Assembly: GCF_029910235.1 (NCBI RefSeq)
Contig: NZ_CP112877.1
Coordinates: forward strand, 62,001 to 126,000
Reading direction: 5' to 3'
Source of the DNA: Pseudanabaena galeata CCNP1313
GTDB taxonomy: Bacteria; Cyanobacteriota; Cyanobacteriia; Pseudanabaenales; Pseudanabaenaceae
Length of the DNA stretch: 64,000 nucleotides
Of the stretch, positions 12,162 to 55,958 are shown one piece after another. How positions within the stretch are numbered: position 1 is the stretch's first letter; every line of letters begins with the position of its first letter. Below the pieces are notes generated by a model. The model was not told the origin of the DNA. It ran no database searches and saw only the letters and a program-made list of their open reading frames with translations. Made by a program: the position numbers and the translations under genes.

Positions 12162-12557
12162 TCAAGCATAACTTTTGACTTTGACTTTAGTGTTTTTTTG
12201 ACTAGCTTTAATCGGTTCATTGCGCCGCAATCCTTCTAGTTGTTTTAGCTGTTGTGACTGCTCTTGTAAGCGAATAGAAAGGCGATCGCTCACCAGTTCA
12301 CATAGATCAAAAATAAATGGTTCGACAATTTCATAATATACGCTGACTCCTTGAGGAGTTCTAGAGACAATCCCTGATTGAGCCAAAATCTTTAGGTGTT
12401 TTGAGACATTTGCTTGACCTAACCCTGTCTCTTCCATGATTTCAGTAACATTCTTTGATCCTGACTTCAAAGAACATAACACTTGTAACCGACTGAGTTC
12501 GGATAATACCTTAAAGTAATCAGCGACTTGAGTCAGAGCAGAAGGGTTGAAGGTCAT
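12162..12557 (-). CDS. ArsR/SmtB family regulator, candidate sulfide sensor
   Basis: A 131-residue winged-helix repressor: VLSELSRLQVLCSLKSG helix (17-33), recognition helix GLGQANVSKHLKILAQSGIV (45-64) and the beta-wing SRTPQGVSVYYEI. It has only two cysteines, C28 in alpha-2 and C86 in alpha-5. Persulfide sensors SqrR and BigR also use one cysteine in alpha-2 and one in alpha-5, though their spacing is about eight residues longer. No metal-type CVC motif is present. A 16-bp motif in its own promoter recurs at psbA, the flavin oxidoreductase and heme oxygenase, so it is the likely local repressor. The lysine-rich tail is poorly conserved. Confidence 0.85.
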   Translation of the reverse strand: MTFNPSALTQVADYFKVLSELSRLQVLCSLKSGSKNVTEIMEETGLGQANVSKHLKILAQSGIVSRTPQGVSVYYEIVEPFIFDLCELVSDRLSIRLQEQSQQLKQLEGLRRNEPIKASQKNTKVKVKSYA

Positions 12558-12612
12558 GACGGTAGAAGAAAATTTTTACTATTTTTATTTTATGATAGCT
12601 TAACTATATCAC

Positions 12613-12628
12613 ATTACCATATAATGAT
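12613..12628. promoter_or_regulatory. Candidate autoregulatory ArsR operator
   Basis: ATTACCATATAATGAT; read on the minus strand (ATCATTATATGGTAAT) it matches 14 of 16 positions of the heme oxygenase site at 7350. It lies 55 bp upstream of the ArsR start, with a further half site TAACTATAT at 12601-12609. Confidence 0.5.
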
Positions 12629-12781
12629 ATACCTAAAACTGAATTCATGAGAATCCATTGTAAATTCTGTTAGAGATAATCCTCTAGAACTTTTAGACTA
12701 AATATTTTAGAAGATTATAACTATCCGTGTAATTTTCGTCCTGAAAAGCCTAATACGTATTGGTCCTCTGTTAGTGTCACG

Positions 12782-12867
12782 AATTTTTCGCCACTTGCAA
12801 AATTGTATTTTGCAATGCTTTTGCTGTGAGGCTTTAAAAAATCAAATTTCTTTGTGGCGAAAAAATT
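12782..12867. repeat. Nested inverted-repeat element in a 506-bp gene-free gap
   Basis: Outer arms AATTTTTCGCCAC (12782-12794) and its complement with one extra A (12854-12867) enclose an inner hairpin TTGCAAAAT-TGT-ATTTTGCAA. It may be a small transposon-like repeat or a structured RNA. The rest of the gap 12629-13063 holds no recognisable gene. Confidence 0.45.
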
Positions 12868-13063
12868 AACTGCCCCGCCGCAAGCGGACGGGATATAGAA
12901 AATGTTTTGCTTGCACACATTGTTTAGCATTGCAATTTCTATCTTTCGCCGCAGAGCGTCGGGGAATTTACCCTAAGAGTTTAAATTGTTTTAATGCCGA
13001 TCCGAAATCAATTCTCAATTTGTAATCATGAGGTTGAATGCTAGCCGCATTGTTTAGACTTCT

Positions 13064-14049
13064 TCAAATTTTCGGAGATTGAAGCACACTTAACAGGATC
13101 AACCACCAAGGTACACTTAGATCGGGAATGAACTTAGCTCCGCTTTTAAGCATTGGTAAACCTTGCGCCAATAAAAATCTGAGAGAGCGTAAAGAAACAG
13201 GGCAATGCTGATATTCATCAACTATTCCATAGTTCGCAGCGAGTTCCGCCGCAATCTGAACTTTGCCAGTTCGCCGCATCAGGTCTAGATCGTTACATAG
13301 AGCAGCAATTACCCTACCAACAAATAAAGGAGTTTCCCAATTAAACTTATCCGCGATCGCTGCCACACCAAGATTACTATCATTATCCTCAAGATTGCCT
13401 TCAGCCAACTGATGAAACTGCTCAGTACCAACAATCCCCGGCCAAAGTGAAATCGAAGCAACATTAAAAGGCTTTAGTTCGATAGCCATTTCAGCCGCAA
13501 GGCGATCGCAAGCAGATTTACCAGTTCCATAGGCTACTCCAAAAATAGGAGCTAAACCACCCCAAGAAGAAATCGTCACAATCAAACCTTGTTTGCGCTG
13601 GGTCATCATCTTCGCAGCAAAATGACTTGATACATAATGACTTCGCAAACCGACTTGATTGCAAGCATCCCAAGTACTCAGATCTGCTTCCCAAAATGGT
13701 TTACCCTTGGCAGCAATCAGCGATCGCACACCTCCAAAAGCATTATTCACTAATAGATCCAATTGTCCATTTTGTTCCCGATCAATTTGCTCAAATTGAG
13801 ATTTAACCTGTTGATCGTCACTGTGATCAACGGGAACTGCAATACAAATTCCACCCGCCTTTTCTACTGCGACTTTAGTTTCTAGTAAGCTTCCCGAGAT
13901 AGTTTCTGTAGAATTTGTCTGATGCACACTGCGCCCCGTGATATAAACCAACGCACCTGCTTCACCTAAAGCAATGGCAATCCCTTTGCCATTGCTTTAG
14001 GTGAAGCCCCTGTTACTAAGGCAACTTTCCCTTTTAAATTTGCTGCCAT
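13064..14049 (-). pseudogene. SDR family oxidoreductase, frameshifted in its cofactor-binding motif
   Basis: The reverse strand from ATG at 14049 encodes an SDR start (AANLKGKVALVTGAS), then changes frame and continues from about 13985 as GIAIALGEAGALVYITGRS to a normal C-terminus. SDR catalytic features remain: NNAFGG, a catalytic Ser in TISSW, and YGTGK (YxxxK). The nucleotide-binding TGxxxGxG motif is destroyed, because the first frame reads TGASPKAMAKG and then hits a stop. The family is the DHRS1-like group of about 300 residues. The lesion coincides with a perfect inverted repeat (13959-14007), so the gene is very probably inactive. Confidence 0.8.
13959..14007. repeat. Perfect 22-bp inverted repeat created inside the SDR gene
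   Basis: Arms 13959-13980 and 13986-14007 are exact complements around the 5-nt loop TCCCT. One arm encodes the expected SDR sequence (IAIALGEA). The other replaces the glycine-rich motif and adds two bases net compared with a normal RGI-type segment. Confidence 0.9.
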
Positions 14050-14351
14050 GATAAACCATCTCCATTTTGCGAAACACTTTCCAATTATCGCTTACCGATG
14101 AACTAGCGATCGGCATGACCAGTCTTTCGTATTGTTTGATTTTCCCTCTCTCGTCTTCAACAATAGCTACAAAATATGTTGAATCTTCCCTATGAAATAT
14201 TTCCAGAGATTAGTTGAGAAGATTATGCTTATAAAATTTGAGTTACATAAAACATTCTAGTCAGGAAAGTTAACAAATAATTGTCCGACAAAAGTAATGA
14301 TTAACAAAAAAAGTAGCCCTACGCCAAACTTTACAAAACGTTATTTGAAAC
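14050..14351. other. Gene-free stretch
   Basis: About 300 bp between the SDR pseudogene and the transposase fragment. It is AT-rich, and no coding region, hairpin with a T-tract or repeat is recognised. Confidence 0.5.
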
Positions 14352-14600
14352 ATGGAAAGACTAAAAATCACCCTCACCAACACCGATTATCGCCAATGCG
14401 TGGCTCTATGCTTAAAAGGTAATGGTCATGCGTCAACCATCAATCGTGCACAGGTATTACTTGCTCTGCATGACGGTGTGGACATCTCCGAAGTAATGCG
14501 AGTGCTGCGGGTTAAAAGAACCCGCCTCTGGAGGTTGCGGAAGCAATATCTGCAAGGTGGCTTAAACGATGCCTTAGCAGATCGGCGGCGGCGATCGTGA
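14352..14600 (+). pseudogene. IS630-type transposase N-terminal fragment
   Basis: Eighty-two codons encode only the helix-turn-helix front of an IS630-family transposase: INRAQVLLALHDGVDISEVMRVL, then VKRTRLWRLRKQYLQGGLNDALADRRR. The catalytic DDE part is absent, and a stop follows within the usual arginine-rich linker. It is a remnant of an insertion sequence marking the start of the accessory region. Confidence 0.65.
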
Positions 14601-14775
14601 TGTTTCAAATACAGCCTAAAACGACAGGGCGTATGCTGTTCGGTTATTGACGAGAAAAGAACTATCAATCAGAATGCTTTTCAAAAGTAGAGGTGCAAAG
14701 GTAATCAGATCGCTTTGTTGCCTATGGCTTTTGTGCATCTATTTCCCATGTCTCACATTTTTCTAGATAGCAACT

Positions 14776-15357
14776 ATGAAAACCTATCCAATTAATTCTC
14801 TGAGAGTTCCCTATAGTCCCCACCGCAGTAACTTCCTTAGCCAAATCCAAAATCTTCAGATAGCCACATTGACGGCTTCAATTGTGGGAATCGTCATCAC
14901 CTTTGCTTGCTCTAAAGGGATGTATCTCACGGCGCTACTAGCCTTGATTGGTTTGCTGATAGCCTTCCCAAAGGTATTGCTGATGCTCTATGGCAAATTC
15001 GAGCAAATGATTCGGCATTCTAAGTACAGTCCCGTTTTATTACTGGGCATCGCTCTTGGCTTCCTGATTGGTTTACTGTTGATTTTTACAGTGGAGCCAG
15101 CTCAAGCCCAGTTTTTCAATAGGACTCAGACATGGATGACAGGTGCAATTCCTGGGATTGATACAGGACTTGTTGCCCTGATTTTCAATGTGTTGCGAGC
15201 CTTGTTTGTAATCTATCTGGGAATTGGACTTGTAAAGGTGATTCAATCAGCCAGAAACGATGATGACTGGCAACAAATGGCGAGAACACCTCTAATTTTG
15301 GTTGTTACCGTAACAATGGGCGATATTTTGGCAGGCATTATCACAGGTGCAGCCTAA
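14776..15357 (+). CDS. VirB2/TrbC-like multi-pass membrane protein (type IV secretion, tentative)
   Basis: A 193-residue membrane protein with four hydrophobic segments: about residues 33-55, 56-75 (LTALLALIGLLIAFPKVLLML), 90-110 (ending EPAQAQFF, like a signal-peptidase cleavage site) and a C-terminal pair from 130. Two hydrophobic helices after an AQA cleavage-like site resemble VirB2/TrbC pilins. The order with a small two-helix VirB3-like gene and a VirB4-like gene supports this. The long N-terminal region is unusual, so the assignment is tentative. Confidence 0.45.
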   Translation: MKTYPINSLRVPYSPHRSNFLSQIQNLQIATLTASIVGIVITFACSKGMYLTALLALIGLLIAFPKVLLMLYGKFEQMIRHSKYSPVLLLGIALGFLIGLLLIFTVEPAQAQFFNRTQTWMTGAIPGIDTGLVALIFNVLRALFVIYLGIGLVKVIQSARNDDDWQQMARTPLILVVTVTMGDILAGIITGAA

Positions 15358-15361
15358 CACT

Positions 15362-15682
15362 ATGACCGAAGAGTACAAATTTCGTAAGGTCAATGCCATT
15401 CTGGGAGCAAGTCCCAAGATTGGACCGTTTCCCACTGAGTTAATCATTCCTTGGTCAACCATCAGCTTTACTCTGTTTATGATTTGCTATGTAGTCCTGA
15501 ATCTGCCTTGGTTATGGGTATTGCTAATCGTGGCATGGGGTGATGCAACATGGTGGATCTTGACAGGTTCAAAGCCCTATCGATTTTTATCAAAATTTAT
15601 CCCTGTGCCGCGATGGACAAGAGGAGTTTATCAGTACAGAGGGATGCGTAAGCAGGAGGTTAGGAAGTATGCAGAGCGTTAA
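15362..15682 (+). CDS. VirB3/TrbD-like small membrane protein (tentative)
   Basis: A 106-residue protein with a short cytoplasmic start, two adjacent hydrophobic segments (about residues 34-65, ISFTLFMICYVVLNLPWLWV then LIVAW) and a basic tail. This size and topology match VirB3/TrbD, the inner-membrane partner of the VirB4 ATPase. The ATG at 15362 lies 5 bp after the upstream stop and is preferred over a GTG at 15347. The 3' end overlaps the VirB4-like gene by 14 bp, indicating one operon. Confidence 0.5.
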   Translation: MTEEYKFRKVNAILGASPKIGPFPTELIIPWSTISFTLFMICYVVLNLPWLWVLLIVAWGDATWWILTGSKPYRFLSKFIPVPRWTRGVYQYRGMRKQEVRKYAER

Positions 15683-17162
15683 TCAAAAACGATATAAGCA
15701 CTTTGAGAAAGAGCTAGCCGTAGAATGTCTACTCAAGTTTGAGCTACGCGGTCGCACCGTAAGTTGCTTTGTGCTTAAGCAAGGTCAATCATCTCTAGAA
15801 TCGTTGCAGTTTGTATTTGGCTGGGAGTCCAAAGGTATCCATACTACCCTCTCAGCAGATCAAGAAGAATCACTATTTGAGGCGATTCAGTCAGGCTTAA
15901 AGGATATTCCCGATGGCGAAAAGCTGACGGTGCATTTTGGTTCAGTTAGTTCTGACAGCGATCGCCAACAGCAGCTCCAAGAACTCTACGAACAAGCGGA
16001 TACTCCGCAACTCAAGTTTCTAGTGATGGGTGAAAAGCAGAGAGTACAGGAATTAGCGAAGTCAGGACTACGCAAACCTAAATTCCTGAGACTCTATGCC
16101 ACCTATACCCTGCGTGGCTCGACGGCTGGGGGTAATGATGTGCTGGAAAAAGCACTGGCTTGGATACAGAGGCTATCACAGCAATTGATGGGTCAGGAAA
16201 AGCAAATCGAGCAGGAGCGACATGAAATTGCTTTTGCCAAGGCATTTACTGATGGTTTCTTGAACTGGGAACAGATTCTGGTAAATCGTATGGGTTTAGA
16301 CCTGCGCCCACTGACCGAGCATGAACTATGGGAACATCTCTGGCGGCAATTTAATAGCAGCCACCCACCTGCGATTCCCCAATTGTTGGTGATGTCCGAG
16401 CGTGGTGTGGAGGAGCGCATCAATACCCAAGTGCATCTGAAAACATTATTGCTAGAGCGACCTGATTCAATTCCCTTTGCTGATAATGGGTTTGTGCATC
16501 TGAAAGGCGAATATATCGGTGTACTCACCTTCATGGATAAACCAGGGGGCTGGGTATCGAAGGGTAAGCAGATGCGTTATCTCTGGGAGGCGATCGCCCG
16601 CGACTCTGTGGCAAACACGGAAGTGTTTTGTCAGTTCACAAGGGCAAATGAAACCATTGTCAAAGCGAATATGCAACGGGTGACGAAGCAGAGCATAGTT
16701 TCGCAAGAGCAATCCGCTTCTTTGAATAACATCAATGTCAATGCTTCATTGAAACAACAAAGAGCGGTCAAGGCACAAGAAGCACTCTACGAAGGCGCAA
16801 TTCCAATCAACGTGGCGGTAGCGATTTTAATCCGCCGTCCTAGTCCCAATACCCTTGATGATGCTTGTCGTTATTTTTGCAGTTGTTTCCAACGTCCTGC
16901 ATGGGTTGAGCGGGAAACTGAATATGCATGGTTGATGTGGAAGCAAACCTTGCCAATTACGGTTGGTAATTTGCTAGCTCAACCCTTTCCCCGCCGTCAC
17001 GTTTACCTATCCGATGAAGCGGTCGCTTTTACGGGTTGTGTTATGCCCAGATCGGTCGATGAGACTGGGTTTGAATTGATTACCGAAGAAGGCGGTATGC
17101 CTCTGTATCTGGATGTGCGAAAGCATCGGAATATTGGTATTTTTCGTCCATCGCGGAATTAA
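15669..17162 (+). pseudogene. VirB4-like conjugation ATPase, truncated at Walker A
   Basis: A 497-residue product that looks like the N-terminal, pre-ATPase half of a VirB4/TraC-type protein; these are normally above 800 residues. It ends KHRNIGIFRPSRN-stop. In family members the same place reads IGIFG-x-[TS]-R-[SA]-GKS, the Walker A loop, so the frame breaks exactly at the nucleotide-binding motif. In another frame downstream (about 17160-17260) a short coding-like tail follows. With the upstream VirB2/VirB3-like genes it forms a relic of a type IV secretion operon. The VirB4 assignment is inferred from gene order and this end motif. Confidence 0.5.
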
Positions 17163-25335: not shown

Positions 25336-27528
25336 GTGGAAGCTTCCTTTGGTCACTTTACGGAACTTGCCAAAGATGGTGAAGATAGCTTGGGCTTTAC
25401 CATGCACAAAGATACCAACAAAATTGAATGTCGCTACCAATTGACCGAAGGTAAGGGGCAACAGGTAGTCGCCAAACTCCGCGCTGCGGTGAAGAATGCT
25501 TCAGAAGTGGTGCTGGCTACCGATGGCGATCGCGAGGGTGAGGGAATTGCTTGGCATTTACAGCAGCAACTGCATCTGCGTAATCCCAAACGCGCTGTCT
25601 ATAACCAGATTACACCTACGGCGGTTAGAGCCGCGATCGCTAATGCTCATCAGTTAGATTTAAACTTGATTTCCGCACAGCGAGCGAGACAATGTTTGGA
25701 CAGGTTGATTGGATTTAAAGTTTCGCCACTTGTGCGTCGTACTAGTGGCGGTAGCTCGGCTGGTCGGGTGCAGTCAGTGGCTTTGCATATCGTCTGCCAA
25801 CGTGAACGCGAGATTAATACCTTTGTGCCGATTACTTACTGGTCGGTATGGACGGAATATGCTGAAGGATTCACATCTTTCTATGCGGGTAGTAGTGAGA
25901 TTGAGCCTGTGCTTGAGGATCAGGATGTCACCGATGATGCGGCGGAAGTGAATACGGAATCTACGGTTGAGTCAAAACGGGTATTGTCAGAAGCGGAAGC
26001 TGCCCGAATTATTCAAGTTGCGCGTAATCATCCCCATGTCGTTCGCGAAGCTACGGGTGTCACTGCTCAGAAATCACCGTTGCCGCCTTTCATTACCAGT
26101 TCGCTTCAGCAAGCTGCCTCTGTGAGATTAGGGCTATCGCCTGAAGAGACGATGAAGGTGGCTCAAGAGTTGTTTGAGGGTGTCGATTTACCTCAAGGTC
26201 GTAAAGGTTTGATTACCTATCACCGCACTGATAGCACCAGTCTCGCTCCTGAGTTTTGTGCTGAGGTAAAGGAATGGCTATCGAAACACGATCCTGATAA
26301 TGTCCCTAAGAAAACTACTCGTCATCGTGAACAGGCGAATGCTCAATCAGCCCATGAAGCGATTCGTCCTACCTATTTGAGTATTACTCCAAAAACGGTG
26401 AGAGACCATCTCAGTGCCAAACAGCATCAACTCTATGAGTTAATCTGGCGCAGAGCCGTTGCTTCTCAATGTGCGAATGCTTTGATTCAGAAAAGTCGCG
26501 TGATTATTCAGGCTGGTTCGACGCTCTGGCAAACTAGGGGCAGTATTCTCACCTTTGCGGGTTATACGCGCTATTGGAACGATTTGAGTAAGGATAAACA
26601 TATTCCTGCGTTAACAAGCGGTCAGACCTTGGCTTTGGCGAATGCGGGTTTCACGCAGAAGCAAACTCAACCTCCTGCTAGGTATAGCGAGGCGAAGTTA
26701 GTGCAGGTGTTAGAGCGTCAGGGTGTGGGTAGACCGAGTACGTTTGCGGCGATCGTCAAGACCCTGAAGGATAGAACCTATGTGTTACTCAAGGGTAAAG
26801 TTCTCGAACCTTCGGCTTTGGGAATGTCTACGGATGATGTGTTGCATAAAACTTTCCCCGATTTGCTCAGAGCCGATTTTACCGCAGGGATGGAAACGAC
26901 TTTGGATGAGATCTCGGTGGGTAAGTTGGAGTGGCAAAGCTATTTGATTGGTTGGCATCAGTCTTATTTTCAGCCGATGTTGGCGCGTGCCTATACAAAT
27001 CTCGGTGCGGATTTACAGCCAAGTAATCGCAAAAATGAGCTTTCGGATGTGGCTTGTCCTACTTGTAGTCATCCTCTCAGTAAGATTCCTTCTAAAAAGG
27101 TGAGTGGTGGGCATTTTCTCAAGTGTGAGCACGGCTGTGAGAATCTGGTGATGTTTTGGAGCGATCGCCGTAATCAGTGGGAGATTCCTCAACCGAAGGG
27201 CGAGAATGCAGTGACGGCGGAGGTGACTAATTTTGCTTGTCCTGTCTGTGGCAAGCCTTTGGCTAAGTTTCCCTACCATAAAGATGGTGTGGATAAAGTG
27301 ATGTTGAAGTGTGCGGATGTTCAGGCACGTCAACGCAAGGATCATGCGGATGTGGTCTTTTTCTGGTCTTCTCAGGAGAAGTGGTGGTCGAAGAAGTTTG
27401 GCGATCTGGATGAGGCGGCTAAGCCGAATTTGGGTAAGGCTTCAACAGCTAAGGAGAAGAAATCTGCTCAGGGAAAGTCTAAGCAGGCGGGTAAAGTGAC
27501 TAAGCCTCGTCCTAAAAAGTTGTCTTGA
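25336..27528 (+). pseudogene. topA: DNA topoisomerase I, 5'-truncated
   Basis: A type IA topoisomerase, which relaxes negative supercoils by passing one strand through a transient break. Present are the Toprim acidic motif ATDGDREGEG (61-70), the LISAQRARQCLDRLIGF block, the active-site Y295 in GLITYHRTDS, and two C-terminal zinc-ribbon-like repeats with CPTC and CPVC. Missing is the first Toprim strand with its catalytic Glu (IVEAP/IVESP-KAKTI). Upstream of the GTG at 25336 only a damaged IVPFSDKTIQAILGSEW is found before a stop. The enzyme is therefore probably dead. The preceding plasmid-type genes mark it as a mobile-element topoisomerase, not the housekeeping copy. Confidence 0.75.
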
Positions 27529-28842: not shown

Positions 28843-31800
28843 ATGACCTTCACAGCAGTCCTAGAGAACATCGCCCGATCGCTAATCGCCACAAAAATAG
28901 GCGAGAAACTCAAAACAGCCAAAAGCATATCCCTATCAGGACTATCCTGCTTAGGCAAAGGACTAATTAGCACCCACCTATGTCAACAACAAACCAAACC
29001 ATTACTCATTGTCACCGCCACCGTCGAAGAAGCCACCCGATGGGCTTTACAACTCCAGTCAATGTCATGGCGCGTCTATCTATACCCTCCCCTTGATACA
29101 TTTCCCTACGAACCAGCCCAAATCGATTTAGAAACCGCTTGGACAAGGATTGAGATATTAGCGGAATTGCTTGCTAAACCACAGCATAACTTAGCGATCG
29201 CTACCACCATTAACGCGCTACAGCCCCATCTACCATCCACTCAAGTCTTCCAAAAACATAGTCTCTATCTCAATATCGGCGATTCGCAATCGGTTAAATT
29301 ACTAGCTTCTGCTTTGGCAAGATTAGGATATGAAGAAGTCAAAGAAGTAAAAGAATCAAAACAATGGAGCCGCAAAGGATTCAGTTTTGAAGTGTTTCCA
29401 GTTAATCGAAATCAACCCGTGCGCCTAAGCTGTAATCGCGGTACTGTCGAGAAAATCAGAGAATTTGACCCCACTAATCCCAAAAGCTTTACTGACCTAT
29501 CTAGCATTGCGATCGCCCCTGTCGATTTGCATGAGTTTGTTGCTCATAAAGCTACATTGCTAAATTATTTACCAAAAAACTTCGTTATCGCTCTTGATGA
29601 ACCCGAACAATGCCAGAGCTATGGCGATCGCTGGTACGAGGCGGCGGATGAACTTTATAAAAATCAAGATCCTCAATTAGCTACATCCAAACTGCATTGG
29701 GACTTTGCTAAGTGCATGACTGAGGCGAAGAAGTTTCAGATGCTTCAGCTTACCGAGCGATCGCTTAAACCCAAAGCCAATATTTTTGACTTTGCCAGTT
29801 CCTCTATTCCCATAGTTCCCCATCAGTTTGACCAGATGGCATCGCTCATTCGCGACTATCTCAAATCGGAATATCAAGTCACCCTAATTTCGGCTCAACC
29901 TTTGCGAGTGGCAACTTTGCTCAAGGAGTATGACTGCATTGCTAATTTTGTCAGTAATCCTGATGATTTACAGTCAATTGCACGAATTCAGAAAGCTGGT
30001 AAACCCATCATTTTAAAGTATTCGGGACTGATGGAGATGCAAGGCTTTGTTTTGCCTTGTTGCAAGATGGCGCTCTTGACCGATCGCGAATTATTTGGAC
30101 AGCAATTACTAGCATCGCCAACCTTTGTGCATCCCTCACGGATGAATACAGCTAAATCAGTTAATCCTGACGAGCTAAATGTGGGCGATTATGTCGTGCA
30201 TCGTAAATATGGGATTGGTAAGTTTACGCGCTTTGAAACCATTGAAGTGAAAGGAGAAAAGCAACCGCATTACATCGTTGAGTTTGCTGATGGTAAAACT
30301 GCGGTGGCGATCGCGCAGGAAAATGAGAAGATTCTCTCCCGCTATCGCAGTGCTTCTAATAAGCCGCCCAAGTTAAATAGCATCGCCAATACAAAGGTTT
30401 GGGATAACGCACTGAACAAGTGTCAAAAGGAAATTTACAAGTTAGCAAGGGATTTACTACAACTCTATGTCCGCCGTGCTAATTTAGTCGGCTATGCTTT
30501 TCCAACCGATACCGATTGGCAACAGGAGATGGAAGATTCTTTTCCCTATCAACTCACACCCGATCAGGTCAAGGCTGTTCAGGATGTGAAGCAAGATATG
30601 GAAAGCGATCGCCCAATGGATCGGCTGGTTTGCGGTGATGTCGGCTTTGGTAAAACAGAGGTGGCGGTAAGGGCAATTTTTAAGGCGGTTTGTGCGGGTA
30701 AACAAGTGGCTCTGTTAGCTCCGACGACGATTCTGGCGCAACAGCATTTTCATACGCTCCAAACTCGTTTTACGGCTTATCCCTTCACTGTGGAGATCGT
30801 GAATCGGTTTCGCCCTGCGAAGGAGCGCAAGCAGGTTTTACAAGAGGTTGCGGATGGGAAAGTTCACATCATTGTCGGTACGCATCAACTTTTATCTAAG
30901 GATGTTGAGTTTCACGATCTGGGTTTGCTAGTAATTGATGAGGAACAACGCTTTGGCACGGTGCAGAAAGAGAAAATCAAGGCGATGAAGGGGGATGTAG
31001 ATTTGTTGACTTTGAGTGCTACGCCGATTCCGCGTACTCTCTATGCGGCGCTTTCTGGGGTGCGGGAAATGAGTGTGATTGCGACTCCTCCTCCCTCAAG
31101 GCGATCGATTCAAACCCATTTGTCTGCCTATGATGCGTCACTGGTGAAAACGGCGATTCGTCATGAGTTAGATCGTGGTGGTCAGGTATTTTATGTTGTG
31201 CCGCGCATTGAGGGGATTGAGGCGATCGCTGTTTCTTTGAAAGCAATGTTACCGAATGTGAGATTAGCGATCGCGCATGGACAGATGCAGGAATCGGAGT
31301 TAGAGTCGGCGATGGTTGCTTTTAATAACAATGATGCGGATATTCTCCTCTGTACGACGATTATTGAGTCAGGTTTGGATATTCCCCGTGTGAATACGAT
31401 TTTGATTGAGGATGCTCATAAGTTGGGTTTGGCGCAACTTTATCAATTGCGTGGTCGCGTTGGTCGGGCTGGGATTCAGGCTCATGCTTATTTACTGTAT
31501 CCGCCTAACCTTGAGTTGACGGATGCGGCGAAGAGGAGATTGGATGCAATTCAGGAATTTAGTCAGCTTGGTTCGGGATATCAACTGGCGATGCGCGATA
31601 TGGAGATTCGTGGGTTGGGGGATCTCTTGGGTGAGGAGCAGTCGGGTCAGGCGGATGTGATTGGCTTTGCGCTGTACATGGATTTGCTTCAAGAATATAT
31701 TAATGAGTTGCGGGGGAAGATTTTGCCTGAAGTTGCGGATACTGAGCTTCAGTTGCCGCGTTTGGTTGCCTTTATTCCTGATAGTTATATCGAAGATAAG

Positions 31801-32181
31801 GAGACGAAGATTAATGCTTATTTGACTTTGGCGAAGGTGAAGTCAAAGGAAGAGATTCTCAAGTTGGCTGCGGTTTGGGAGGGGTTGTATGGGGCTTTGC
31901 CTGAAGAAACTCAGGTATTGCTCAGGGTGATGGAATTGAAGCTGGTGGCGCGGAAGGTTGGGGTGTTTCGCATTTATGCGTCAGAGGATGGGCGCGATCT
32001 GTTTCTGGACTCGAAGCTGACGGATTCGCTTTGGGAGTTGCTTCACGCAAAGATCCCGATTGAGTTCTATTATCGTTTCTCTTTTGAGAAGGGGAGAATT
32101 AAGATCACGAGTCTGGCTCTCCTGCCTGGGGATAAGCAAGTACATTTCTTGATTGAGTGGTTGGGCTGTTTTTTGAAGTGA
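28843..32181 (+). CDS. mfd: Transcription-repair coupling factor Mfd
   Basis: A 1112-residue translocase that removes RNA polymerase stalled at DNA lesions and recruits UvrA. Domain order is visible: the UvrB-like front with [19 protein letters not shown] and FPYEPAQ; the RNA-polymerase-interacting CarD-like domain from about 441 ([17 protein letters not shown]); the RecG-like helicase with Walker [16 protein letters not shown] (about 597), DEEQRFG (about 699), SATPIPRT and [10 protein letters not shown]; and the C-terminal TRCF domain. Length is normal. This is a housekeeping gene and marks chromosomal DNA here. Confidence 0.97.
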
Positions 32182-35522: not shown

Positions 35523-37727
35523 ATGCCTGACAACATCGACTACCTCCAAGGCATCATCGAACGACTAACCTTTCACTCCGAAGAGACAGGCTATACCGTA
35601 GCGCGGCTAAAAGTACCCAAAGCTCAAGACTTAATCACCGTCGTCGGTAACTTTGCCAATATCCAAGCGGGACAGACCCTTGCCCTAGAAGGCACATGGC
35701 GATCGCATCCTAAATTTGGCGACCAATTCCAAGTCACTCAATACCGTGAAACTAAACCCGCCACAATTACAGGAATTGAGAAATATCTTGGCAGTGGTCT
35801 AATTAAAGGCGTGGGACCGGTCACCGCTAAACGCATCGTCACTCATTTTGGCTTAGATACCCTTGACATCATTGAAAATGAGATTGACCGCCTGATAGAA
35901 GTTCCTGGCATTGCCAAGAAACGGGTGAAGATGATCAAAACTGCTTGGGAAACACAAAAAGCGATTAAGGAGGTCATGGTATTTCTGCAAGGACATGGAG
36001 TATCCACTACCTATGCAGTCAAAATATTCAAGCATTATGGTAACGATTCCATTCAGATAGTTTCCGAAAATCCCTATCAACTGGCGACGGATATCTATGG
36101 CATTGGTTTCTTTACTGCCGACCAGATCGCTCGGAATATTGGCATTGAAGTTAGTTCTGAGTTTCGCAGCATAGCGGGAATCTTTCATTGTTTAGGGGAA
36201 GCTGCTGAAGATGGGCATTGCTATTTACCGCGCCCAGAACTAGAAGAGAAAGCCATCAAACTGCTTGCTCTCGAAGACTATCAACCAGATCCTGAAATCA
36301 TTTCTAAGATTGTTCTCCATCTCTCTATCAACGATCGCTTAGTGATGCAAGGCTTAGAAGGAGAGTTCATCTGCTATAAACCGACTTACTTCCACACCGA
36401 ACAAAATCTTGCCGAACGGGTTTATCAATTATTACAACACAAACATCATCCAGACCCTGAACGAGTCAATGCTTGGATCGATCGCTACACCACCCAAAGA
36501 AATATCCAACTCTCGCCCAAACAACGCGAAGCTGTGGAGATGGCGGCAAATTCGTCGGTGCTTATTCTCACAGGTGGGCCGGGGACAGGTAAAACTACCA
36601 CCACCCGCACGATTGTCGCACTCTGGAAAGCGATGGGTAAGGAAATTGCTCTTGCTTCACCGACGGGTCGGGCGGCTCAACGATTACAGGAAGTCACGGG
36701 CTGTGAGGCGAAGACAATTCACCGTTTTCTAGAGTTTGACCCAAAATCAATGGGCTTTAAACGCAATCAGGAATATCCTCTGACGGCTCAGGCGATCGGT
36801 ATTGATGAAGCATCGATGTTGGATCTGTTTCTTGCTTTTTCTCTAGTTAAGGCGATTCCCTTGGGCGCTCAATTACTTCTTGTCGGCGATACCGATCAAC
36901 TTCCCAGTGTGGGCGCGGGCAATGTTCTCAAAGATTTAATTGATTCTCAGCAAGTCCCTGTGATTACGCTCACTGAGGTATTTCGTCAAGCTCAGGCAAG
37001 TCAAATTATCCAGAATGCTCACCGTATCAATACGGGTAAGTTTCCGCAGATGGAAAAAGTCTCTAATCAACCCCAATCCGATTGCCTCTGGCTGGAAATG
37101 CCGAATGCTGAAGCGGGTCAGCAGGGGATTTGTGACATTATTACGGAGTTGTTACCCAGTCTGGGCTTTGACCCTCAGCAGGATATGCAGGTTCTCTGTC
37201 CGATGACCAGAGGTGATGTCGGTACGCGCAATCTCAATGTTGTGCTTCAACAGTTGCTCAATCCTCCTGATGCGATTAAGCCCGAAATTAAGTATGGGAA
37301 TACGATCTTCCGCTTGGGCGATCGCATTATGCAGCAGGTGAATGACTATAACCGTGAGGTTTTTAATGGTGACATTGGTACGATTACGGGTGTCGATTTG
37401 GAGGAACGGGAAGTCACGGTTGTATTTGGCGATCGGCAAGTGGTCTATGATTATGCCGATCTTAATGAGATTGCTCTTGCTAGAGCAACGACGATCCATA
37501 AAGCTCAGGGCAGTGAGTATCCTGTGGTGATCATGCCTCTGTTTATGCAGCATTTTATGATGCTCTCTCGTAATCTTTTCTACACTGGTTTAACTCGTGC
37601 GCGAAAGCTTGCCATTATCGTTGGGGAGTCGAAGGCGATCGGGCTGGCGGTCAAACAAGTTAGCGATCGGCAGAGATATACTTATCTGGCGAAACGGTTA
37701 GCAAAGTTTGCCGATCCTCAATCTTAA
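35523..37727 (+). CDS. recD2: RecD2-type ATP-dependent 5'-3' DNA helicase
   Basis: A 734-residue SF1B helicase. The N-terminal OB/beta region starts LQGIIERLTFHSEETGYTVA, then helix-hairpin-helix segments (SGLIKGVGPVTAKRIV and IEVPGIAKKRV). The motor has Walker A LTGGPGTGKTTTTR (about 348), Walker B IDEASMLD (about 425), VFRQAQAS and the C-terminal ATTIHKAQGSEYPVVIMPL with TRARKLAIIVG. RecD2 acts outside RecBCD in DNA repair and replication restart; no recB or recC is present. The full length and normal motifs suggest a working enzyme. An IS element has inserted just after it. Confidence 0.93.
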   Translation: MPDNIDYLQGIIERLTFHSEETGYTVARLKVPKAQDLITVVGNFANIQAGQTLALEGTWRSHPKFGDQFQVTQYRETKPATITGIEKYLGSGLIKGVGPVTAKRIVTHFGLDTLDIIENEIDRLIEVPGIAKKRVKMIKTAWETQKAIKEVMVFLQGHGVSTTYAVKIFKHYGNDSIQIVSENPYQLATDIYGIGFFTADQIARNIGIEVSSEFRSIAGIFHCLGEAAEDGHCYLPRPELEEKAIKLLALEDYQPDPEIISKIVLHLSINDRLVMQGLEGEFICYKPTYFHTEQNLAERVYQLLQHKHHPDPERVNAWIDRYTTQRNIQLSPKQREAVEMAANSSVLILTGGPGTGKTTTTRTIVALWKAMGKEIALASPTGRAAQRLQEVTGCEAKTIHRFLEFDPKSMGFKRNQEYPLTAQAIGIDEASMLDLFLAFSLVKAIPLGAQLLLVGDTDQLPSVGAGNVLKDLIDSQQVPVITLTEVFRQAQASQIIQNAHRINTGKFPQMEKVSNQPQSDCLWLEMPNAEAGQQGICDIITELLPSLGFDPQQDMQVLCPMTRGDVGTRNLNVVLQQLLNPPDAIKPEIKYGNTIFRLGDRIMQQVNDYNREVFNGDIGTITGVDLEEREVTVVFGDRQVVYDYADLNEIALARATTIHKAQGSEYPVVIMPLFMQHFMMLSRNLFYTGLTRARKLAIIVGESKAIGLAVKQVSDRQRYTYLAKRLAKFADPQS

Positions 37728-55912: not shown

Positions 55913-55958
55913 AAATAGAGAGAGTATTGATAGATATCTATCAATACTCTCTCTATTT
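55913..55958 (-). terminator. 46-bp perfect palindrome after ssb
   Basis: Two 23-bp arms meet with no spacer at 55935/55936 (centre TAGATATCTA). It lies 7 bp from the ssb stop and is followed on the minus strand by TGTTTTTTAG, so it would act as a strong terminator; a protein-binding role is also possible. Confidence 0.8.

Follow-up and report, generated by a model that had tools for sequence, protein, structure and literature searches.

Template switching at quasipalindromes has been described in Escherichia coli, both with reporters and at the thyA hotspot (outlined in PMC7202029 and PMC6357072), and template switching has been named among the causes of bacterial mutation bias, as summarized in PMC10710837. 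In the account of the 18-bp lacZ quasipalindrome reporter given in PMC6357072, a 4-bp insertion is lost, unlike the locus examined here, where 7 nt gave way to 9. A sequence-only reading of this locus had held that clear natural examples of complete palindrome formation are uncommon, which is a fair statement for the genes of wild bacteria but not for the class itself, which is well described. Among the matches listed in a literature search whose coverage lay mostly outside subscription journals, titles and abstract openings contained no cyanobacterial event of the quasipalindrome template-switch kind.

The locus lies in a stretch of 64,000 nucleotides from Pseudanabaena galeata CCNP1313 (hereafter the window), which forms part of contig C4 (174,751 bases). 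Because of its size and its likeness to the plasmids of Pseudanabaena sp. ABRG5-3, C4 is probably a plasmid; no overlap of at least 30 bases was found between the contig ends, which bears neither way on circularity. Sequence comparison of the window with its homologs indicates that a quasipalindrome-associated template switch very probably inactivated one copy of a short-chain dehydrogenase/reductase (SDR) gene on this contig.

Results

The interrupted SDR gene and its paralog

SDR proteins are marked by a Rossmann glycine-rich motif, TGxxxGxG, and by a catalytic YxxxK. In the window, a perfect hairpin falls in the cofactor-binding motif, within the opening tenth of an SDR gene that runs on the minus strand from ATG 14049 to a stop ending at 13064 (Table 1). 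An intact paralog of 327 aa (L002, G000:C5:80679-81662, G000 being the strain's own genome) is located on another contig, is 88% identical to the window gene, and over the same stretch reads on through TGASRGIGKG without a stop. The sequence-only reading had described an SDR gene killed by a 22-bp arm standing as the exact reverse complement of its partner across a 5-nt loop, with the glycine-rich cofactor motif replaced and the frame changed by two bases, and a repeat search and comparison with the paralog bear out these points. The arms are complementary at 22 of 22 positions; TGASRGIGKG is absent from the window copy; the same stretch spans 985 bases in the paralog and 987 in the window, with the difference of 2 located exactly at the hairpin site; and the frame meets a stop 27 codons after ATG 14049, with the adh_short profile matched from position 43 only.

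With the altered tract came a +2 frameshift and the loss of the glycine-rich motif; TGxxxGxG is present in the paralog and absent from the window copy. The remainder of the gene is open in a different frame, from within the rewritten arm down to 13064, and this leftover frame keeps the catalytic YxxxK as YGTGK. The intact paralog matches DHRS1-like SDR enzymes (PDB 2qq5, E 2.4e-63), with which it has vtgasrgig in common, whereas the window copy differs from these enzymes in having lost that motif.

Table 1 Features of the SDR locus, in window positions
Feature	Position	Strand	Basis or remark
SDR gene, broken near its start	13064-14049	-	Begins at ATG 14049; open remainder matches Pfam adh_short; 88% identity to the paralog
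Rewritten arm	13986-14007	-	Exact reverse complement of 13959-13980; unlike all 42 other distinct homologs aligned
Tract altered, 9 nt replacing 7	13992-14000	-	Reverse complement of 13966-13974; edit distance 7; alignment with paralog and relatives
Loop, 5 nt	13981-13985		Repeat search
Template arm	13959-13980	-	Conserved; still codes the expected IAIALGEA; identical 22-mer in the corresponding position in L020, L021, L028, and L031
Outer stem	13959-13965		Pairs with 14001-14007; already 7 bp in L002, L006, L007, and L009
Inner stem	13975-13980		Pairs with 13986-13991; 4 bp in L002, L006, and L007; would be the priming site of the fold-back
Premature TAG	13966-13968	-	Met 27 codons after ATG 14049
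Leftover open frame, 295 codons, without the cofactor-binding N-terminus	13064-13951	-	adh_short match begins at profile position 43 of 195

Geometry of the hairpin and expectation by chance

With its 22-nt arms (13959-13980 and 13986-14007), the hairpin is the longest of the seven perfect inverted repeats found in the 64-kb window (arms of at least 12, loops of 3-30). Ten 64-kb sequences simulated under a first-order Markov model yielded a longest arm of 13, with one repeat of at least 12 across all ten. Folded as DNA, the hairpin reaches -26.9 kcal/mol, with a z of -12.9 against 200 shuffles. A perfect hairpin per se is unremarkable on C4, which carries 13 of them (arms of at least 16, loops of 3-20), the one in the SDR gene counted in; the unusual part is its intragenic place. 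None of the 13 lies inside an open frame on a list of frames of at least 80 aa, and the SDR-gene hairpin is outside any listed frame because it breaks its own. Across the 60 kb of contig C5 that were scanned, one of five perfect hairpins is inside a frame. A 21-bp perfect intergenic hairpin at window 55913-55958 occurs with identical letters twice on the contig (C4:31992 and C4:117913).

Homologs and direction of the change

DNA matches to the gene (E ≤ 0.001) were detected in 19 of 26 genus genomes, own genome included, some of them short or weak, and the gene is also carried by three plasmids of Pseudanabaena sp. ABRG5-3. The scan of genome contigs returned 34 loci, comprising 30 with cyanobacterial titles (nearest Pseudanabaena and Phormidium tenue) and four from other phyla (L058, L065-L067), three of which are remote SDR matches only. 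The N-terminal strip was readable in 64 of 70 loci, representing 43 distinct sequences, with the six loci lacking a match to the strip left out of the alignment. Besides the window copy, these are 28 sequences from the genus or its plasmids and 14 more distant homologs.

Alignment with relatives, which the sequence-only reading had put forward as its check, returned the ordinary motif, two bases shorter, in 42 of the 42 other distinct homologs; the hairpin and the +2 are seen in the window alone (1/43), and no second perfect hairpin was found at the motif site in the 42 relatives. As read from this alignment, the change is one event on one lineage. Because all others have the ordinary motif, the hairpin is derived, and the arm nearer the gene start, found in 0/42 relatives, is the rewritten one. 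Four relatives have the facing 22-mer verbatim in the corresponding position (Table 1), which marks it as the ancestral type and hence as the template. Hence, the earlier proposal that the upstream arm was rewritten off the downstream one stands as regards direction, given the 22-mer in these relatives, but not as regards extent, which is 9 nt (13992-14000) rather than the whole 22. In relatives such as L007, the order in gene direction is the outer repeat (7 nt), 7 nt, the inner repeat with the loop, the facing tract, and the outer repeat again.

A tree built from the 38 distinct rows having most of the gene was star-like and poorly resolved near the window copy, which has an end branch of 0.073, and singled out no sister copy for it. 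The nearest rows by tree path, based on the rest of the gene, are L008 and L012/L039, while within the 211 nt surrounding the site the window is closest to L002 and L007 (92%).

Lesions of other kinds were observed elsewhere in the family. In the copy from Pseudanabaena cinerea FACHB-1277 (L027:2375-2467, L048:3001-3093), 8 nt are deleted from the same motif where the facing arm ends; L014/L043 have an internal stop, L015 and L013/L062 look frameshifted, and L029 has three stops. Judging from these sequences, the SDR gene family decays often, other copies doing so through ordinary lesions.

Neighboring genes and related plasmids

At window 15669-17162, a 497-aa ORF stands where the plasmids ABRG53a and ABRG53b have a 2748-nt gene of the type IV secretion region, and a Pfam search with this ORF gave no match. 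Judged from gene order, which differs beyond this point, the transfer region seems to be cut off here. The window also encodes DNA-handling proteins, namely topoisomerase I (25336-27528), an Mfd-like transcription-repair coupling factor (28843-32181), and a RecD2-type helicase (35523-37727), and genes annotated as topoisomerase I, Mfd-like, and RecD2-type are also found on the ABRG5-3 plasmids. On plasmid ABRG53a (L075:15890-18963), two genes carrying the annotations CBASS cyclase and 7-cyano-7-deazaguanine synthase are located between transfer-region genes and topA.

Precursor-like imperfect hairpins in relatives

An imperfect hairpin of 7 outer and 4 inner bp is present in 3 of the 42 relatives, namely the strain's own paralog (L002), L006, and L007. 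L009 has the outer 7-bp stem with 2 bp inside; the other relatives, 39 in all counting L009, are without the 7+4 bp hairpin, and among the tree-nearest rows, L008 (outer-stem mismatch) and L012/L039, the outer stem is broken. As single-stranded DNA, the presumed nascent strand of L002, L006, and L007 takes the 7+4 shape at -6.3 to -6.6 kcal/mol, equaled by 1-3 of 200 shuffles, while L005 and L070 fold poorly (19/200 and 138/200 shuffles as good). An inner stem of 6 bp in the ancestor would require that the base now seen at that place in the window is older than the event. Since three relatives carry the imperfect hairpin, the event would be the correction of a quasipalindrome and not a hairpin made from nothing. 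The sequence-only reading had proposed that hairpin-templated synthesis made the perfect hairpin; that mechanism is retained, refined by an imperfect hairpin that preexists in relatives.

Random synonymous versions of the site (20,000, following the codon usage in the genus rows) contained the 7-bp outer and 4-bp inner stems together in 0.28% of cases and an outer stem of 5 in ~20%. A hotspot dictated by the protein motif, in which the coding for A-S close to one end can pair with that for E-A close to the other, was considered as a candidate and rejected on this frequency, as the motif alone does not make the hairpin when so few synonymous versions have it. From the comparison of the random versions with 3/42 relatives, those three being related and not independent, it would have been codon choice rather than the protein motif that left the site prone. 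It is doubtful that such sites would be built-in inactivation hotspots, at which synonymous drift in redundant plasmid genes makes quasipalindromes and template switching removes the spares, although if this were true, accessory-gene loss would be set in part by local DNA shape.

Scan for further template switches

Clusters of at least 3 differences were searched for inverse-complement matches of at least 11 nt in 102 alignments (133,027 columns) covering 15,508 window bases, in both directions. The scan gave 41 matches among 3521 clusters, which overlap and are not independent (homologs overlap and both directions are counted), and 41 of the 41 are at the hairpin site; smaller events would escape a search of this kind. 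The control, reversed but not complemented, gave 0. Widespread template switching around the hairpin was accordingly rejected for the bases covered at this match length.

Discussion

Proposed mechanism and age of the event

The polymerase making the plus strand of the window would have copied 13959-13985 and then stalled. The new 3' end may then have folded back at the inner stem (13986-13991 onto 13975-13980), after which the nascent strand would have copied itself through 13966-13974 and returned to its proper template at the outer 7-bp repeat, leaving 9 nt in place of 7. An identical product would result if, at these two repeats, synthesis had instead switched to the other parental strand or to a sister strand. 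The GC skew of C4 is irregular, with no clear leading/lagging pattern.

The break is probably recent and late on the window's end branch, because the remainder is open and has a dN/dS like that of other copies. The leftover frame is uninterrupted by a stop, though 4.3% of single changes (119/2772) would create one, and the mean dN/dS between the window copy and 16 others is 0.18, with the others ranging from 0.14 to 0.23 in a set of the window and 16 hand-picked genus rows, one of which has a stop and one a deletion. Since an intact copy stays in the genome, which fits redundancy, loss of the SDR gene in the window is probably tolerated.

Alternative explanations

An artifact of assembly or library preparation, by which a fold-back read at the imperfect hairpin got into the consensus, has a slim probability. 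Fold-back artifacts form at the same sort of imperfect inverted repeat, and matches in the 26 genus genomes and PLSDB plasmids, from which records very near the window may be omitted, include no second independent record of the allele. A single-read error would nonetheless need to win the consensus; the genome, with its 5.84 Mb in 6 contigs, 100% completeness, and 0.31% contamination, suggests good data, and the pattern appears at no other site in the homolog-covered bases of the window. Decay by ordinary lesions elsewhere in the family could instead favor several independent substitutions and indels completing the palindrome by accident. However, this would take an edit distance of 7 in ordinary changes within 9 nt, against one switch event, a given random 9-mer would fit with a chance of 3.8e-6, and the dN/dS of the rest of the gene is inside the range of other copies, leaving accident with a vanishingly small probability.

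It is also very unlikely that the frame is rescued, by recoding or an internal start, with the enzyme still active. While the 295 open codons and the low dN/dS would be compatible with a working product, no reading frame keeps the glycine-rich motif, its residues being either replaced or shifted out of frame, and recency explains the open frame equally well. Perfect hairpins are common between genes on C4, and the hairpin might thus be a functional element (a terminator, attenuator, structured RNA, or small mobile unit) that was inserted into the gene or selected there; yet each arm aligns with the motif of the gene itself, a T run is absent after the hairpin in both directions, Rfam gave no match at the gathering score over 12500-15500, and the 987-base query matched only the gene, the paralog, and an inverted self-match in the strain's genome, which makes a functional element extremely improbable.

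Comparison with known systems

Template switching at a quasipalindrome, the reading we prefer, makes a good worked example here, and it cautions that seven clustered changes can stem from a single event. The case is nearly complete: the genome retains an intact copy, 42 homologs establish the direction, three relatives show a precursor-like hairpin, and the break is recent. As in the Ripley model, the E. coli thyA hotspot, and the QP5/QP6 lacZ reporters, an imperfect inverted repeat appears to have been perfected from one arm with a small net indel, and as at the natural hotspots, gene function would be lost; unlike the E. coli systems, the change of 7 to 9 nt is in a natural cyanobacterial gene copy. 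The homogenization of inverted-repeat arms in Saccharomyces cerevisiae was likewise detected by phylogeny in coding genes, but the cases outlined in PMC8604942 are amino-acid replacements in 39 genes, in contrast to the broken frame of the window. Template-switch events that create or mend RNA hairpins share the perfect stem arising from one event, although those outlined in PMC8794818 concern RNA genes, in which the hairpin is useful, whereas the window hairpin breaks the frame of a protein gene. The mutation class is already known, and the window case is a clean further instance of it, unusually clear through the intact copy in the same genome.
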